A stretch of DNA of 60,595 bases from an uncultured Oscillospiraceae bacterium (GTDB lineage Bacteria; Bacillota; Clostridia; Oscillospirales; Oscillospiraceae), in contig CANQQO010000001.1 of the NCBI GenBank assembly GCA_947625965.1, positions 1 through 60,595 of the forward strand, given 5' to 3'. Below are positions 26,247 to 42,634 of this stretch, piece by piece. Below the pieces are notes generated by a model. That model searched no databases, was not told where the DNA came from, and worked only from the letters and a program-made list of their open reading frames with translations. Made by a program: the position numbers and the translations under genes. Numbering within the stretch: the stretch's first letter is position 1; each line of letters opens with the position of its first letter.

Positions 26247-26439
26247 ACGATGTTTTTTGAAAGTTCTCCGCGTGAGCCCACCGCCGGCCCGGTGATCCCG
26301 CTTCTGCCGCCGGTGCGGCGGGGGCGTGGGAAACGCGGAACAAATGGTCTTCCGCTGGGGGTCCGGCGGGACGGAGACGGTGGTTTTCCGCTCTCGCTGG
26401 GCGCCTTTACACAATTCACTGTTGCATGAAAGAGGATTG
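26243..26439 (+). pseudogene. Probable remnant of a BlaR1/M56 antirepressor gene
   Basis: An ATG overlaps the BlaI stop and reads MNDVF then TGA, caused by a run of six T. One more T would give MNDVFLKVLRVS, which resembles the N-terminus MNDxFLxVLNxS that I remember for M56 antirepressors after blaI. Further on, a frame from about 26301 ends ...FPLSLGAFTQ, where intact M56 genes read roughly CPFSLESAF. Only about 190 of the expected 1000 or more bases remain, in several frames. This is a hand comparison from memory, so the reading is tentative. Confidence 0.4.
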
Positions 26440-27762
26440 ATGACGATGAAACATTCCAAAACGACCCATTTCCTTCGCTTCCTGGCCCTGGCTCTGGCGG
26501 CGCTGCTGCTGTGCGGCTGCCACCAGGAGCCAGCGCCCACCGAGACGGAGGCCCCCACCACCGTCGCGCCCACCGAGACGACGGCCCCCGAGACCAAGCC
26601 CACCGGCATGACCGTGGGACCCGACTTCCAGGTCGTGCGGGAGCCGGAGGCGGTTTCCATCTACCCCTTCACCGACGAGGAGCTTGCCGCCGCCCGGCAG
26701 GCGGCCATGGCGGAGGTGGGGGCGCTCCAGGCGGAGCCGGGGCTCCTGAGCTTCCGGCTGGACCTGCTGGCCTTCGATCCCATCGCAACGGATGTGGCGG
26801 TCCGGCAGCAGATAGCCTCCGGCTGGTATCCCGAGTGGACCGAGGAGGATTTCTACAGCCGCCACTGTATCTTCACCCTGCTCTACACCGCGTCCTATGA
26901 CCACGATGTCACCAGTCTGCCCGACGTCGAGTGGGAGCCCCGGATCGTCCACCTCTACCGGCCCGACAAGGACCAGCCCTGGCAGGTGGGCGGCTTCGGA
27001 GCTTCGGATTCTCAGTATCCCGCCCGGCTGCGGAACGTGACGGACCTGCCCGTGGAGGGCCAGATCCTGGCCTCCTACGACCTGGGCAAGGGGGAGTATC
27101 TGGCCTACGTCCGGGACAGCGCGGGAAATATCACCTTCCAGCACCTCACCGACGTGGTGGCTCCGGAGCTTCAGGAGATGTACCGCCAGAATGAGGACAT
27201 GGTGGGCTGGCTCAGCTTCCCGGACAGCGAGGACATCATCATCGACTACCCCGTGATGCACCACCCGGAGGAGAAGGACTACTACCTCCACGCCAATTTC
27301 CAGGAGGAGTACAGCAACCACGGCACCCTCTACATCAAGGAGGACTGCGACGTCTTCCTCCCCACGGACAACGTGGTCATCTACGGCCACAACATGAAGG
27401 ACGGCTCCATGTTCGCCGGCCTCCTCCAATACCAGAGCAAGGACTTCTGGGAGGACAACCAGACCTTCGTCTTCCAGACCCTGACGGAGAAGCACACCTA
27501 TCAAATCTTCGCCGTGTTCATCACCTCGGGATACTACGGCATCGGATATCCCTTCCATATGTTCGTAACCGCTGAGAGCGCCGAAGATTTCAACCAGTTC
27601 GTGGCGGATGTGAAGGACCTGGCCCTCTACGACACGGGCATCTCCGCCGAGTACGGGGATAAGCTCATCACCATGTCCACCTGCGAATACTCCCTGGACA
27701 ACGGCCGCCTGGTGGTCGTAGCCAAGCGGATCGACGATCCGGCCACGCCCGCCGCGTCCTGA
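26440..27762 (+). CDS. Lipoprotein with C-terminal class B sortase domain
   Basis: A 440-residue protein. The signal peptide ends LLLCG-C27, a lipobox, followed by a Thr/Pro/Glu linker. A middle region (about 75-230, with EDFYSRHCIFTLLYTASYDHD and EWEPRIVHLYRPDKDQPWQVGG) is not part of known sortases to me. The C-terminal 200 residues are sortase B-like, with His317 in YGHNMKDGSMF, Cys415 in MSTCEYS and Arg423 in NGRLVVVAKRI forming the transpeptidase triad. Sortases are normally held by an N-terminal TM; lipid anchoring plus an extra domain is unusual. The start is set by AGAGG before ATG 26440. Co-transcription with blaI is possible, since no terminator separates them. Confidence 0.85.
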   Translation: MTMKHSKTTHFLRFLALALAALLLCGCHQEPAPTETEAPTTVAPTETTAPETKPTGMTVGPDFQVVREPEAVSIYPFTDEELAAARQAAMAEVGALQAEPGLLSFRLDLLAFDPIATDVAVRQQIASGWYPEWTEEDFYSRHCIFTLLYTASYDHDVTSLPDVEWEPRIVHLYRPDKDQPWQVGGFGASDSQYPARLRNVTDLPVEGQILASYDLGKGEYLAYVRDSAGNITFQHLTDVVAPELQEMYRQNEDMVGWLSFPDSEDIIIDYPVMHHPEEKDYYLHANFQEEYSNHGTLYIKEDCDVFLPTDNVVIYGHNMKDGSMFAGLLQYQSKDFWEDNQTFVFQTLTEKHTYQIFAVFITSGYYGIGYPFHMFVTAESAEDFNQFVADVKDLALYDTGISAEYGDKLITMSTCEYSLDNGRLVVVAKRIDDPATPAAS

Positions 27763-37932: not shown

Positions 37933-38259
37933 TCAAGTATGATAGGAGAGCAGGAAGTCCCAGAATCTTTCCAAAGTCCGGCGGTCCTCCGGCGAGAGCC
38001 GCTCCCAGCGCGCCAGGAGGGCCCTTTGGTCCTCGGAAAGGGGGAGGGCGACCGGCTCGGACCCGAAAAACTGGCTGAGGGTGATCCCGAATCCGCTGCA
38101 AATGCGGCTCAGGGTATAGATGGAAGGGGCGTAGGTCTTCCTGAGCATCGTGCAGAGGGTCGAATAGGCGATCCCGGTTTCCTTTGCCAGCCGGTAGACA
38201 GACCAGCCCCGCTCCTCGCAAAGTGCATGGATGCGCCGAATCACTTCACTATCCTCCAC
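37933..38259 (-). CDS. Xre-family HTH regulator, divergent from the surface proteins
   Basis: A 108-residue regulator. An Xre-type helix-turn-helix fills about residues 4-62 (IRRIHALCEERGWSVYRLAKETGIAYSTLCTMLRKTYAPSIYTLSRICSGFGITLSQFF). A Glu/Arg-rich C-terminal helix (about 70-105) probably dimerises it. The start is taken as the GTG at 38257-38259 because AGGTG lies 6 bases upstream; a GTG three codons earlier would have no ribosome site. It is divergent from the cohesin-dockerin gene and separated from it by a region with shared CGTTAT elements. It is therefore the likely repressor of that gene and of itself. Confidence 0.85.
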   Translation of the reverse strand: MEDSEVIRRIHALCEERGWSVYRLAKETGIAYSTLCTMLRKTYAPSIYTLSRICSGFGITLSQFFGSEPVALPLSEDQRALLARWERLSPEDRRTLERFWDFLLSYHT

Positions 38260-38283
38260 TGTAATCACCTCGCTTTATTGTAC

Positions 38284-38359
38284 CCGTTATGACGTTTTGC
38301 CGATAGGTAATATTTTATGCTATAATCCTCTTGACATTATAACGGAATTACGTTATAAT
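38284..38359 (+). promoter_or_regulatory. Divergent control region with a perfect palindrome
   Basis: The surface-protein promoter is TTGACA (38331-38336), 17 bases, TATAAT (38354-38359). A perfect inverted repeat ATTATAACG-GAATTA-CGTTATAAT (38336-38359, 24 bases) fills the spacer and covers the -10 box. A further CGTTAT (38285-38290) lies near a minus-strand TACAAT (38274-38279) that could be the -10 box of the regulator gene. Confidence 0.75.
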
Positions 38360-38420: not shown

Positions 38421-41099
38421 ATGCGACAATTCAAAAGTTTAGTGTGCATTTTGCTGATTCTTGCTCTTGTTTTTGCAGTATGCCCAAATTATACGGCTTA
38501 TGCTGAGGAAGAGCAAGATGTGGCAGATAGTGGAGGCAGCCGGCAAGTTGATGACTTGCTAGGAAACAAAGGTATGCCTGATTCCAGCGAGGCAGAAGGC
38601 CAAGCAGTTTTGCAGGCTCTTAATGAGAATAATGCCTATGACACAATGGCAACCACAACCTCCACAGGCCTGAGCCTAGACCAATTGAGGGAAAAGTTTC
38701 CGGCGGGGAAGTATTGGAATCATGCTGATAGACCAGGTAACTCCAATGCTGTGAATAATCAAGACGGGTATACTTCAATACCTTGTCCTAAGCACGGCAA
38801 CGTAGGTTCCTCTTCTCAGACTTGTAATGGATTTGTTCCGTATGGTTCAACACAATTATCGTGGCAATGCATGGGCTTCGCTGAGAAACTCGGTTTTGAC
38901 GCAACTGGCTATAATCCAAGAGATAATGCCCATGGATGGTATACATACACAAATTCTTCTGCTTTGGACAACTTAAAACCGGGAGATATTGTTCGGTTCC
39001 ATAATTTCAGCGGGTATGATCATTCAATTTACGTTATACGAGTAGACGGCGACAAGGTAGTTTATGCTGATTGCAATCATGATGGACACTGTATCATTCG
39101 GTGGGACAATTGGATTTCTAAAGAAACCTTGCGAGGGAGATTTATTCATGTCCGTTCTGCACCTAGCCCGGTAAGCACATCTTGTAGTTGCTCTACTTCG
39201 TATGCAGGACTGTATATTTGCACTTCCAATGATACCTTATTAATCCGCAATGGACATGGTACGTCGTACACAGCAATTGGAAGTATCCCACATTGGGCTG
39301 GTACATGGGTAACGAAAGCAAGTGGTACGGGAAGCTCTGACTGGGCGCACGTTACTTATAATGGTATTACTGGATTCAGCAGTATGCAGTATTTGGCAAA
39401 GGCACAACTCAGAGTACATGCCTACATTTCAAATACAAAGATGGGTGCTGCGGCAACGATAAATCAGGGAGATAATGCCTATCTTTGCTATCGCTTTTAT
39501 GAAAACCTGACTGACAAAAATATAGATCAGTTACACACTTACAACTACACTGTTAAAGAAACAATATACAATCCTGACGGTACGGTTGCCAATACGTGTA
39601 CCTACACTAATGACAATAACTGGATTAGTGTAAGATGCAATATAGCAGGAACATATACATTTAAAATCGAGGTTACTGGTGATATTGGCGGGACAGTTAA
39701 TGGTTCCTTTACGGTAAAAGCAGCCTCGCCAAAAGAAATACACGTTTCTAGTTCTTCTGTGAATCTGGTTATTGGTGGTACGGATAGTCAGACAATTGAA
39801 GTGTGGACTACAGGTTTTTATTCTAAGCAAACAAAGCTTTGGTGGGGAACCGATAACGATGATAATGTGGCTTGTGCTTGGGGAGATCAAACCTCTGATG
39901 GGAAGTATAAATTAACCTTTACTGCCAAAAAGGTTGGAACGACCAACGTAACGGTTGCAGTAGCAGATAAAGAAACAGAGGCAGTACTCAGCTCTTGCGT
40001 TGTCAAAGTTACTGTAACAGCAAAGACCTATACTGTTTCTTATAATGCTAATGGTGGAAACAACCCACCAGCATCCCAAACCAAAACACATGGGGTTGCG
40101 CTGACCTTGACCAAAGCGACTCCGACTCGGTCTGGATATACCTTCCAAGGTTGGGGAACTTCGTCGGGAGCGACGTCTCCGACTTATCAACCAGGCGGCA
40201 CGTACACGGCCAACGCCAGCGCAACGCTCTATGCAGTCTGGAAGCAAAACGCAGTCACTCTTACCAAAATTGAGATTGCGACCAAGCCTTCTAAACTCAC
40301 GTATGAGGTTGGAGAAAGTCTGAACACCGCCGGCTTGACGTTGAAAGCGACCTACAGCGATAACTCAACGCGAACCATTACCAGCGGGTTTACCACCAGC
40401 GGTTTCAGCTCGGATTCGCCCGGGACCAAGACCGTCACCGTGAATTATCAAGGCAAAACCGCTAAATTCGAGGTAACGGTTAAGGCTAAGTCCGATTCGA
40501 ATACCCCCAAGGTTGTTGCAACTACAGTAAACGGAAAACCCGGCAGCCTGGTCCAGGTGAAGATCATGCTTGAGAAGAACCCAGGCATTGCTTCGCTGAA
40601 ACTGCTAGTTACGCTTGATCCCCAACTGACAGCGGAGTCGGTGGTTTACAACGAGTCCATTGGCGGGATGTTTATGCAGCCCCAGACGATGAAAAGCCCC
40701 CTGATTCTCAACTGGTTTAACGGCGCGGCGGACTTGAAAGAAGCAAATCCCCTGTTCGCGACGCTGAACATCCGGATCTCTGGAAGCGCCAAGACCGGAA
40801 GCACCTTGCCCATCACCATAAGCTATGAGCAGAACAACGTCTACAACATCCGGGAGGAAGACGTCTATCTGGAAGTGGTGAACGGCGGCGTAAAGGTCGC
40901 GGAGTACATGAGCGGTGACATGAATGGGGACAACGTTGTGGACAACAAGGACTTGACCCGCCTGTTCCAATACCTGTCCAGTTACAGCGGCGCGGATTTG
41001 GCGGTCTCTGGCGATGTAAATAAAGACGGCAAGGTGGACAACAAGGATTTGACCCGGCTGTTCCAGTACCTTTCCGGCTGGCAAGTTCAAATTTACTAA
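38421..41099 (+). CDS. Secreted CHAP/NlpC-like enzyme with cohesin and dockerin
   Basis: An 892-residue secreted protein in modules. Residues 1-28 are the signal peptide (ending AYA-E). Residues about 88-250 form a cysteine-peptidase-like domain with Cys150 in SWQCMGFAEKLGF, LKPGDIVRFH, His201 in YDHSIYVIRV and Asn219 in YADCNHDGH, the CHAP/NlpC order. SH3-like (about 258-325) and Ig-like regions follow, then an InlB-type repeat (about 536-608, SYNANGG...GYTFQGWG), a Big_3 Ig domain (about 613-690), a cohesin (about 696-827) and a type I dockerin (about 831-888) with two calcium loops (DMNGDNVVDNKD, DVNKDGKVDNKD). The start at 38421 follows AGGTG. The 5-prime two thirds are strikingly AT-rich. 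The enzyme probably cuts peptidoglycan or a peptide; the target is inferred only. Confidence 0.85.
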   Translation: MRQFKSLVCILLILALVFAVCPNYTAYAEEEQDVADSGGSRQVDDLLGNKGMPDSSEAEGQAVLQALNENNAYDTMATTTSTGLSLDQLREKFPAGKYWNHADRPGNSNAVNNQDGYTSIPCPKHGNVGSSSQTCNGFVPYGSTQLSWQCMGFAEKLGFDATGYNPRDNAHGWYTYTNSSALDNLKPGDIVRFHNFSGYDHSIYVIRVDGDKVVYADCNHDGHCIIRWDNWISKETLRGRFIHVRSAPSPVSTSCSCSTSYAGLYICTSNDTLLIRNGHGTSYTAIGSIPHWAGTWVTKASGTGSSDWAHVTYNGITGFSSMQYLAKAQLRVHAYISNTKMGAAATINQGDNAYLCYRFYENLTDKNIDQLHTYNYTVKETIYNPDGTVANTCTYTNDNNWISVRCNIAGTYTFKIEVTGDIGGTVNGSFTVKAASPKEIHVSSSSVNLVIGGTDSQTIEVWTTGFYSKQTKLWWGTDNDDNVACAWGDQTSDGKYKLTFTAKKVGTTNVTVAVADKETEAVLSSCVVKVTVTAKTYTVSYNANGGNNPPASQTKTHGVALTLTKATPTRSGYTFQGWGTSSGATSPTYQPGGTYTANASATLYAVWKQNAVTLTKIEIATKPSKLTYEVGESLNTAGLTLKATYSDNSTRTITSGFTTSGFSSDSPGTKTVTVNYQGKTAKFEVTVKAKSDSNTPKVVATTVNGKPGSLVQVKIMLEKNPGIASLKLLVTLDPQLTAESVVYNESIGGMFMQPQTMKSPLILNWFNGAADLKEANPLFATLNIRISGSAKTGSTLPITISYEQNNVYNIREEDVYLEVVNGGVKVAEYMSGDMNGDNVVDNKDLTRLFQYLSSYSGADLAVSGDVNKDGKVDNKDLTRLFQYLSGWQVQIY

Positions 41100-41119
41100 T
41101 TAATATGGAGGAATTAAAA

Positions 41120-42592
41120 ATGTCTATTAAAAAAGCGTCTCTTGCCCTTCTTCTGATTGTGGCGATCTTGTTGACGGCTTTGCCCGCCTTTGCGGATGGG
41201 GACCCTACCTTTGCGGTGGATGAAGTTAGCGCCAAGCCCGGCGACACTGTTACGGTTAAAATCAATGTTGTCAATAATCCGGGCATTGCCTCTATCAAGC
41301 TGGAAATGACCTTCGATGATGACCTGACCCTCGAGACGATTGAATATAACAAAGATATTGGCGGCATGAGTATGCTACCCCAGACGAATGACAGCCCCGT
41401 GATTCTCAACTGGTTCAACGGTGCCGCCAACTCCGAGGGTGACTGGACCTTTGCTACGCTGACCTTTACGGTGGCGGACAATGCCAGGACCGGCGAGCAT
41501 CCCATCAACATCACCTATACCCAGAATAATGTGTATAACATTGACGAGGAAGACGTGTATTTCGCCATCCAAAACGGCTCCATCACCGTCTCTGTGGATC
41601 CCACCGGTGTGAATCTGAGCGAGACGGACCTCAAACTGCACCAGGGCGCCTCCAAGACCCTGACCGCCACCGTCACGCCGCCCAACGCCAGCCAGAGCGT
41701 GACCTGGAAGTCCGACCATCCCAATGTGGCTACCGTGGACGCCTCCGGTAAGGTCACCGCCGTCTCCGGCGGCGCGGCCACCATCACCGCCACCACCGCC
41801 GACGGCAAGCGCTCCGCCTCCTGCGTCGTCACCGTGGAGCCCCACACCTTCACCGGCGCCTACCAGACCGACGCCGAAAACCACTGGCAGCTCTGCGCCT
41901 GCGGCGAGCAGGGCCCCAAGACCGCCCACACCTTCGAATGGGTGGTGGACAAGCCCGCCACCTCGGAGGACACCGGTCTCAAGCACGAGGAATGTACCGT
42001 CTGCGGCTACAAGCGAAACGAAAACACCGTCATTCCCAAGCATGAGCACACCCTGGAAAAGGTCCCGGCCAACCCCGCCACCCACTTCGCCGACGGCAAC
42101 ATCGAATACTGGAAATGCACCGAGTGCGGCCAGCTCTTTGCCGACCCGGAGGGGAAGACCCCCATCTCCAAGGAGGATACCATCGACCCCATGATTCCCC
42201 ACACCTTCGGCGAGGAATGGACCTCCGACGCCACCAACCACTGGCATGAATGTACCTGCGGCGAAAAGAGCGACGTGGCGGCCCACACCTTCGGCGAGTG
42301 GGAAGTGACCAAAGAGGCCACCGCCAACGAGAGCGGCAGCCGGAAGCGGATATGCACTGTCTGCGGCTACGAGCAGGTGGAGACCATCCCCGTTGACCGC
42401 CCTGTGCTGCCCGACCTTCCCGTCCCCACGACCGCTCCCTCCGCCACCTCCCCCGCCTCTCCCTCCACCACCCCCAGCGATCCGCCTAAGACCGGCGATC
42501 CCGCCGCGCCCGCCCTCTGGGCGAGCCTCGCGGGCCTCTCCGTCCTGGCGGCCCTCGCTGTGGCCCTTCCGCGCAGAAACAAGCACGAATAA
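41120..42592 (+). CDS. Cohesin protein with C-terminal sortase signal
   Basis: A 490-residue surface protein. The signal peptide (1-25, PAFA-D) is followed by a cohesin domain (about 29-155) very like the cohesin of the gene upstream (NPGIASIKL, IGGM, LNWFNGAA, QNNVYNI-EEDVY are shared). A Big_2 Ig domain (about 160-238) follows, then four or so HTF-type segments with CxCG/CxxCG pairs (about 240-435), a Pro/Ser/Thr wall-spanning linker, and a sorting signal PKTGD (456-460) with hydrophobic stretch and RRNKHE tail. It would be linked to peptidoglycan by a class A or similar sortase and could hold dockerin proteins. It starts 20 bases after the dockerin gene, behind ATGGAGGA. The first 450 bases are AT-richer than the rest. 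Confidence 0.88.
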   Translation: MSIKKASLALLLIVAILLTALPAFADGDPTFAVDEVSAKPGDTVTVKINVVNNPGIASIKLEMTFDDDLTLETIEYNKDIGGMSMLPQTNDSPVILNWFNGAANSEGDWTFATLTFTVADNARTGEHPINITYTQNNVYNIDEEDVYFAIQNGSITVSVDPTGVNLSETDLKLHQGASKTLTATVTPPNASQSVTWKSDHPNVATVDASGKVTAVSGGAATITATTADGKRSASCVVTVEPHTFTGAYQTDAENHWQLCACGEQGPKTAHTFEWVVDKPATSEDTGLKHEECTVCGYKRNENTVIPKHEHTLEKVPANPATHFADGNIEYWKCTECGQLFADPEGKTPISKEDTIDPMIPHTFGEEWTSDATNHWHECTCGEKSDVAAHTFGEWEVTKEATANESGSRKRICTVCGYEQVETIPVDRPVLPDLPVPTTAPSATSPASPSTTPSDPPKTGDPAAPALWASLAGLSVLAALAVALPRRNKHE

Positions 42593-42601
42593 TCCGCGCG
42601 G

Positions 42602-42634
42602 CGCCCCCGGCCAAATGCCGGGGGCGATTTTTTT
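42602..42634 (+). terminator. Terminator of the cohesin-dockerin operon
   Basis: Arms CGCCCCCGGC/GCCGGGGGCG followed by ATTTTTTT. Confidence 0.85.

Follow-up and report, generated by a model that had tools for sequence, protein, structure and literature searches.

Cohesin and dockerin modules are best known from cellulosomes, in which they join many enzymes to one scaffold, and noncellulosomal cohesins have been treated in earlier work. This report concerns a two-gene locus in a 60,595-nucleotide stretch of DNA (hereafter, the window) from an uncultured gut bacterium of the Oscillospiraceae (GenBank assembly GCA_947625965.1, contig CANQQO010000001.1), in which these modules look instead like private clips. 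Gene A encodes a predicted secreted CHAP-like peptidase ending in a cohesin and a dockerin, and gene B encodes a cohesin protein with a putative cell-wall sorting signal. Together, the two genes would specify a two-part surface protein comprising a foot, a clip-on enzyme, and possible chains of that enzyme; we assign this explanation as a whole a probability of approximately 0.7.

The locus belongs to a known kind, the sortase-anchored single-cohesin systems, which are compared here on the basis of parts of the cited papers. ScaE of Ruminococcus flavefaciens is a single-cohesin LPXTG protein, and the dockerin proteins of this species include peptidases and leucine-rich repeat (LRR) proteins (PMC2930009); the dockerin of RflaF_05439, an NlpC/P60-like protein, is said, as unpublished results, to bind ScaE (PMC3573020). 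There, as predicted here from sequence, a sortase-anchored single cohesin receives the dockerin of a cysteine-peptidase-like protein. By contrast, ScaE is part of a cellulosome system with more than 220 dockerin proteins, and RflaF_05439 comprises two NlpC/P60-like modules and an X-dockerin dyad without a cohesin (PMC2930009; PMC3573020), whereas genes A and B form a neighbouring pair of cargo and socket in a genome with two dockerins. The amylosome of Ruminococcus bromii includes Sca2 and Sca5, which have sortase signals, and Amy4, which like gene A holds both a cohesin and a dockerin and for which the legend of Figure 4 proposes self-aggregation on a surface foot (PMC5814915). Unlike the present pair, R. 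bromii has starch enzymes, several of which use the sockets in common, and Amy4 is one of five dockerin amylases (PMC5814915).

A survey describes monovalent adaptors, each a single dockerin-cohesin pair often joined to an enzyme, and nonSLH-anchoring scaffoldins, i.e., anchored single cohesins with an LPXTG motif or a C-terminal membrane helix, for example in Paenibacillus guangzhouensis (PMC11557425); these resemble genes A and B, respectively. Dedicated neighbour pairs, wall-lytic cargo, and cohesin exchange are absent from the parts of the survey compared, in which the word "lysozyme" does not occur and peptidoglycan is mentioned solely for SLH anchoring (PMC11557425). The mucinolysome of Limousia is likewise a gut non-cellulose cohesin-dockerin system with a sortase-anchored scaffoldin (cSca5), but it has multi-cohesin scaffoldins and up to 22 dockerin-bearing carbohydrate-active enzymes for mucin (PMC12997984). 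Clostridium perfringens has enzymes with single cohesins or dockerins, one glycoside hydrolase (GH) of family GH31 carrying both, and no multi-cohesin scaffoldin, as here; unlike here, all five of its cohesin proteins carry GH domains, and an anchored socket is not mentioned in the section compared (PMC12997984). Furthermore, two scaffoldins with putative peptidases have been described (PMC4217186). Dedicated dockerin-cohesin gene pairs with wall-lytic cargo were not found in the literature searched, which covered few subscription papers. The locus stands out by its private pairing, by the natural occurrence of split as well as one-piece forms, by the exchange of cohesins, and by wall-lytic cargo that recurs.

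Architecture of Genes A and B

The original prediction described the first gene as a secreted cysteine-peptidase-like enzyme ending in a cohesin and a dockerin, and the second, 20 bases on, as a cohesin protein with a PKTGD-type sorting signal and the tail RRNKHE. Pfam, a cohesin alignment, and conserved residues confirm the former, Pfam and sequence confirm the latter, and the reported absence of a glycoside hydrolase also stands, as the Pfam scan of both genes lists no GH family. The observation goes beyond chance: 22 aligned relatives share the CHAP and dockerin parts, and adjacent dockerin and cohesin genes recur throughout the genus. The features are as follows (+, forward strand).

38421..41099, +: gene A, predicted secreted CHAP-like peptidase with cohesin and dockerin; start at 38421 behind GAGGTG, stop at 41099
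38853..39077, +: CHAP-like catalytic domain with Cys155, His206, and Asn224 (sub-cut-off Pfam match, invariant residues, AlphaFold2 model)
39231..39419, +: bacterial SH3 domain (match to solved chain 2kq8, "cell wall hydrolase", E 1e-5)
40029..40238, +: Flg_new (InlB B-repeat; Pfam E 5.4e-14)
40284..40481, +: Big_3 (Pfam E 3.8e-12)
40503..40901, +: cohesin of gene A (alignment to the gene B cohesin, E 1.6e-38, 55% identity)
40914..41072, +: type I dockerin of gene A, two near-identical repeats (DNKDLTRLFQYLS; Pfam Dockerin_1 E 2.4e-8)
41120..42592, +: gene B, predicted wall-anchored cohesin protein; start at 41120 behind GGAGGA, 20 bases past the gene A stop; stop at 42592
41207..41590, +: cohesin of gene B (Pfam Cohesin E 7e-10)
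41561..41579, +: shared stretch at the cohesin end, where divergence stops and near-identity starts in comparisons of anchor genes
41603..41830, +: Big_2 of gene B (Pfam E 1.4e-17)
41855..42394, +: ribbon-like repeats of gene B (match to solved IgA protease 9qa6)
42482..42592, +: sorting signal PPKTGD, hydrophobic stretch, and basic tail RRNKHE (sequence; like the tail in the G455 and G428 proteins described below)

Briefly, gene A reads as a signal peptide (by eye), the CHAP-like domain, SH3, a Pfam-blank stretch, Flg_new, Big_3, the cohesin, and the type I dockerin. The three putative catalytic residues are invariant in gene A and in the 22 relatives, among 120 listed, that align across its CHAP and dockerin parts, and PF08239 (SH3) is present in many relatives. 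In an AlphaFold2 model of residues 85-345 (mean predicted local distance difference test, pLDDT, 86.5; predicted template modelling score, pTM, 0.66), Cys lies at a helix start, His in the second strand after it, and Asn just past the next strand, an order that would suit the Cys-His-Asn set of a papain-like fold; the fold is tentatively assigned as CHAP-like from sequence and predicted secondary structure. The gene A cohesin is undetected by Pfam and matches solved chain 4uyp ("cellulosomal scaffoldin anchoring protein C") with E 0.0075. Both dockerin repeats conserve the Asp positions, as expected of type I, and calcium binding is predicted. With one cohesin and one dockerin on a single enzyme, gene A is built like Amy4 and the monovalent adaptors, and gene B, with a single cohesin and a cell-wall sorting signal, like an anchoring scaffoldin of the ScaE type. 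Residues 298-430 of gene B match residues 840-974 of 9qa6 (protein E 4.2e-40), and the repeats are possibly a stalk.

In the proposed mechanism, sortase would fix gene B in the producer's own wall by a covalent linkage to peptidoglycan, with the cohesin facing outward, and the terminal dockerin of gene A would plug into this cohesin. In place of fusion to an anchor, a calcium-dependent, non-covalent joint would hold the secreted CHAP enzyme, which probably acts on peptidoglycan as a peptidase or amidase. Because gene A has a cohesin of this type as well, another gene A molecule could probably plug into the first, giving short chains that stand on gene B. A candidate for the anchoring enzyme lies in the window.

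26326..27762, +: sortase-family gene, candidate for gene B anchoring (PF04203 E 2.2e-11 at 27244-27729)

It is one of two sortase matches in the genome, the other being on another contig; its N-terminus resembles, by eye, a lipoprotein signal (LCGC).

One-Piece and Two-Piece Forms of the Locus

The predicted role of the gene B cohesin as a foot for the dockerin enzyme, already proposed in the original prediction, is strongly supported because of the one-piece counterparts at the same locus, the exchange of cohesins between anchor genes, and the gene pairs found throughout the genus. In genomes G399 and G524, the block up to trpS is 89-90% identical to the window in DNA sequence over 2.9 and 3.8 kb, and the divergent helix-turn-helix (HTH) gene is also common; G417 shares the HTH gene and the pair, and its contig ends before trpS. 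The first gene of the pair encodes an LRR and CBM_X2 protein ending in a dockerin in G399 and a CBM_X2 protein ending in a dockerin in G524 and G417, and the second gene encodes in all three a cohesin protein resembling gene B. G455 and G428, two sister species, have the same trpS and HTH genes together with a single LRR protein (by eye) of 817 or 1017 residues, which ends directly in the PPKTGD signal and in which neither a dockerin nor a cohesin was found. Over its final 40 residues, the G399 cohesin protein shows 95% identity to the end of the G455 protein and 84% to that of the G428 protein. The LRR and CBM_X2 parts of the G399 dockerin protein have counterparts of 27-32% identity within the G455 protein. 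A peptide bond at this locus seems to have given way to a dockerin and a cohesin, or the reverse, and these natural forms suggest that the joint can stand in for such a bond.

The anchor genes are also mosaic. Between gene B and its G399 counterpart, identity is 40% for the cohesin and 92% for the adjoining Big_2 domain. Comparison of P0122, a protein from a metagenome, with the G417 protein (P0123) gives 99% in Big_2, 97% in the repeats, and 97% in the tail, versus 24% for the signal peptide and 38% for the cohesin; the two proteins therefore represent two cohesin alleles on one anchor gene, and these alignments indicate that the cohesin is exchanged between near-identical anchor genes. The P0122 cohesin is 81% identical to that of gene B. 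On the cargo side, gene A matches the first gene of G399 only from residue 803 on, i.e., in the dockerin region (42%). Such mosaics provide natural test cases for the specificity of the pairs.

Dockerin-Cohesin Pairs Across the Genus

The comparison was extended to the 136 genomes of the genus, which is probably Faecousia because the tryptophan-tRNA ligase is 86% identical to that of Candidatus Faecousia intestinigallinarum, which is the sole named organism in a list of 120 relatives. A cohesin is found in 61 of these genomes and a dockerin in 68 (both in 58, cohesin only in 3, dockerin only in 10, and neither in 65), and a dockerin-bearing genome has 2 dockerin matches at the median and 20 at most (202 in total over all genomes). 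Of 132 cohesin matches, at least 52 have a listed dockerin match no more than 600 bp away, a lower bound that uses 150 listed of the 202 dockerin matches and includes same-protein cases; approximately 0.55 would be expected from the per-genome counts if matches were spread evenly over 1.9 Mb. In 31 of the 52, the dockerin immediately precedes the cohesin on the same strand; the cohesin is upstream in 15 (both modules in one protein in 10 of them), and the two lie on opposite strands in 6. The two-gene layout was looked for in the DNA of the 31 upstream-dockerin cases, and 22 of them, the window included, could be resolved as a separate dockerin gene immediately followed by a cohesin gene. Beyond 600 bp, a further 9 cohesin matches lie 0.6-2 kb and 22 lie 2-6 kb from a listed dockerin, two of the latter (L129 and L131) being small cohesin genes next to an S8 subtilase with an internal dockerin, and 45 of the 132 have no listed dockerin match on their own contig.

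The C-termini of the sockets were read in 28 dockerin-less genus genes with an N-terminal cohesin and an intact 3′ end. In 26 of them, the protein closes with a membrane segment and basic residues, the exceptions being L129 (an SLH protein by eye) and L231. This count covers genes of the genus other than gene B itself and omits non-N-terminal cohesins, one gene with unreadable bases, one cut by a contig or fetch end, and L253 (a cohesin-only protein of 190 residues); L178-L197 were set aside here, in the comparison of 85 cohesins, and in the pairing tests, as 18 of these 20 repeat larger regions and no cohesin was found in L192 and L196. Sorting-like motifs are present in only some of the 28 genes, and therefore part of the genus sockets may be membrane-anchored.

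Furthermore, dockerin divergence tracks the divergence of the neighbouring cohesin, with a Mantel r of 0.65 over 28 loci and 0.58 over the 23 left when cohesins of at least 45% identity are omitted (p 0.0002 for both, the minimum for 5,000 permutations); the 28 loci were chosen by us, four come from outside the genus, and the L231 dockerin is partial. Plug and socket apparently change together across the genus, and the pairs might supply new cohesin-dockerin joints with mutual selectivity. A broader generalization, held tentatively and with less than even confidence, is that throughout this gut genus the cohesin-dockerin joint would serve as an exchangeable stand-in for the peptide bond between a protein and its anchor: each cargo, often peptidoglycan-cutting, would have a private socket, plug and socket would move together from species to species by recombination within the socket gene, and enzymes with both modules would stack into wall-lytic fibres whose gene order gives tip, link, and base.

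Same-Type Cohesins and Possible Chain Growth

Among the 85 cohesins compared, the gene A and gene B cohesins match each other best, in both directions, at 53% identity, whereas the syntenic counterparts of gene B reach only 43-45%; therefore, both may bind the one dockerin. The same relation was examined at 16 loci in which a cohesin-dockerin protein lies beside another cohesin protein, 10 of them in the genus and 6 in other genera of the family (L134, L135, L136, L138, L141, and L146; L137, which duplicates L135, was excluded). At 11 loci, the neighbour's cohesin ranks first among the 16, and mean identity is 41.4% within versus 28.7% between loci, with none of 20,000 permutations reaching it. 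The best-match and Mantel results would both be expected if a single dockerin type fitted the two cohesins of a locus, and shared history could produce them as well.

Head-to-tail chain growth is compatible with these data because both cohesins are of one type, and the published precedent of Amy4 in another system makes it plausible; we place it marginally below an even chance. The alternative is a closed monomer, in which the gene A dockerin would fold back on its own cohesin and stay hidden until gene B or a signal opens it, and no chains would form. Only approximately four residues (by eye) separate the two modules, their modelled arrangement is moderately defined (AlphaFold2, residues 690-897, mean pLDDT 82.7, pTM 0.73; strands, then dockerin helices), and close cohesin-dockerin pairs recur in many proteins, all of which would suit a closed form. 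Against it, so short a linker should hinder the dockerin from reaching the binding face of its own cohesin, and the neighbouring same-type cohesins suggest binding to a partner; we consider the closed monomer unlikely and retain the two-part protein with possible chains.

As a separate observation, the L236 operon encodes in order a dockerin-only protein, a cohesin-dockerin protein, and a cohesin protein, an order that would fit tip, link, and base.

Cargo and Likely Substrate

The company that gene A keeps was assessed from 39 genus dockerin proteins scanned with Pfam, a non-random set picked from the pair regions and S8 genes (L220 6657-9515 was left out, its dockerin being recognized by our own profile only). 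Peptidoglycan-hydrolase families occur in 7 of the 39: CHAP in gene A (below cut-off), Phage_lysozyme with SH3_3 in five (L218, L227, L230, L232, and L234), and M23 in one (L231), whose plan is near that of gene A, with M23, a ricin-type lectin, Flg_new, Big_3, a cohesin, and a dockerin, followed by a cohesin gene. The others comprise BspA-type LRR_5 proteins (7), polysaccharide deacetylases (4), S8 peptidases (4), CBM_X2 proteins without LRR (2), an M6 peptidase (1), a GDSL and SASA protein (1), and proteins with none of these families (13). No GH family other than Phage_lysozyme is listed in the 39. The apparent private clips, with one socket for each cargo, are thus set in a genus that has few dockerins and whose scanned dockerin proteins include no plant-fibre cargo.

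The substrate of gene A is likely peptidoglycan because of its enzyme family and this cargo company. An enzyme acting on a different target, such as host mucin or secreted immunoglobulin, with the pair serving as a host-interaction display, is improbable at roughly the level of the closed monomer: the LRR proteins, the S8 and M6 peptidases, and the esterase protein among the other dockerin cargo, together with the match of the gene B repeats to part of an IgA protease, speak for it, and they are opposed by the CHAP and SH3 domains of gene A and by the lysozyme-SH3 and M23 cargo of other species in the genus. If the wall-lytic cargo is real, cell-wall hydrolases would be displayed on a releasable tether, which raises the question of gut competition or self-remodelling.

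Weighing the Two-Part Interpretation

Several points weigh against the interpretation of genes A and B as foot and clip-on enzyme. Regarding the modules, the CHAP match of gene A scores 20.4 bits against a Pfam cut-off of 26 (E 7.5e-4), CHAP enzymes vary in the bond that they cut, and the sorting motif of gene B is a variant, PPKTGD, with a weak LPXTG_anchor match (E 0.35). Regarding conservation, only trpS of seven window proteins, with neither the pair nor the HTH gene, was found in 18 of 20 fetched trpS regions (at least four of them short), and the locus is therefore patchy; no full-length gene A orthologue was found outside its own genome in a protein search of 400 family genomes that took the best two candidates per genome. 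That search returned partial matches to the CHAP, Flg_new, or cohesin-dockerin parts, and a contig scan of named genomes gave 5 loci that each match only parts of gene A. Regarding the pairing, a joint change of cargo and cohesin is seen only between the window and G399, G524, and G417, and 5 of the 16 loci (L136, L138, L236, L252, and L253) do not fit the same-type pattern. Within-locus likeness could come from recent duplication, gene conversion, or shared history without shared specificity, and the Mantel test handles shared ancestry only by removing cohesins that are at least 45% identical. Pairing by neighbourhood is not proof because cohesins can accept several dockerins, as reported for the R. 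bromii Sca5 cohesin, which binds three strongly (PMC5814915).

It is accordingly worth considering a released gene A protein and an unrelated receptor encoded by gene B, the two being neighbours by history only. The pairing of A and B is a predicted one, which leaves room for this view; the cohesin exchange, the one-piece counterparts, and the 22 loci resolved as a dockerin gene immediately followed by a cohesin gene all argue against it, and we regard mere neighbourhood as very unlikely.

The bacterium's own genome (2.03 Mb, 110 contigs, 92% complete) was also searched for signs of a cellulosome. Pfam finds one cohesin, that of gene B, alongside the sub-threshold gene A cohesin, and two dockerins, one on the CHAP enzyme of gene A and one inside an S8 subtilase; the gene B cohesin used as a query matched only genes B and A, and cohesin searches of this 92%-complete assembly found no multi-cohesin scaffoldin. 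The original prediction judged the locus not to be a normal cellulosome and named as the contrary outcome a dockerin-rich genome with a separate scaffoldin, which was looked for; with two dockerins and no such scaffoldin found, the judgement is upheld, and genes A and B are therefore not part of a cellulosome. Its label of a "cellulosome-like array" is a poor name because the pair looks like a dedicated one-cargo, one-socket arrangement rather than a scaffold shared by many enzymes. That the locus is an ordinary part of a fibre degrader's cellulosome, as the type I dockerin and cohesin modules might suggest, has a negligible likelihood and was rejected on the own-genome dockerin and cohesin counts, to which the genus median of 2 dockerins and the scanned cargo without a GH family except Phage_lysozyme (39 proteins, of 202 dockerin matches) can be added.

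The second dockerin protein of the genome (L133, contig 30, 1093-8691) is an S8 subtilase with an internal dockerin, whose repeats differ by eye from those of gene A, and its own TPKTGD signal. No cohesin was found in 16 kb around this gene, unlike in L129 (G195) and L131 (G049), and it is an unlikely further cargo of gene B.

Locus Frame and Further Observations

Genes A and B are framed by one predicted promoter and one predicted terminator, with a divergent regulator gene upstream.

37933..38268, reverse strand: divergent HTH_26 regulator gene (Pfam E 1.9e-9)
38331..38359, +: predicted promoter of genes A and B, TTGACA-17-TATAAT (12/12 consensus match)
38338..38357, no strand assigned: palindrome TATAACG-N6-CGTTATA overlapping the promoter, possible operator (sequence)
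42602..42626, +: terminator-like strong hairpin and T run past gene B (sequence)

The TTGACA-17-TATAAT element precedes the first gene in all six loci compared, and the HTH_26 gene is kept beside the locus in five relatives (L128, L223, L221, L198, and L199; tblastn 73-80%). The window palindrome was not found in the same form in the other five loci compared. Palindromes of the ACG-N6-CGT type lie near the promoter at differing positions in the window (38338-38357) and, by eye, upstream in L128, L223, L198, and L199; these are possible operators of the divergent HTH protein.

Other arrangements of the two modules were observed as well. In six genus genomes (L132 and L245-L249), a gene with an N-terminal dockerin lies opposite a membrane-anchored cohesin gene as a divergent pair, and the dockerin protein is a polysaccharide deacetylase by Pfam in the four scanned. 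Genes with a C-terminal cohesin lie near genes that start with cohesin-dockerin in L250, L252, L253, L254, and L256, possibly another type of chain, and the three scanned (L252, L253, and L254) are collagen-like. One S8 subtilase polypeptide (L130, 4923-13457) combines a dockerin, SLH, and a cohesin, the last by our own profile. Finally, two genomes of another genus in the same family (G001 and G107; 1.5-1.7 Mb) have 5 and 3 cohesin matches, respectively, and at least 30 dockerin matches each, which is a large dockerin system for genomes of this small size.

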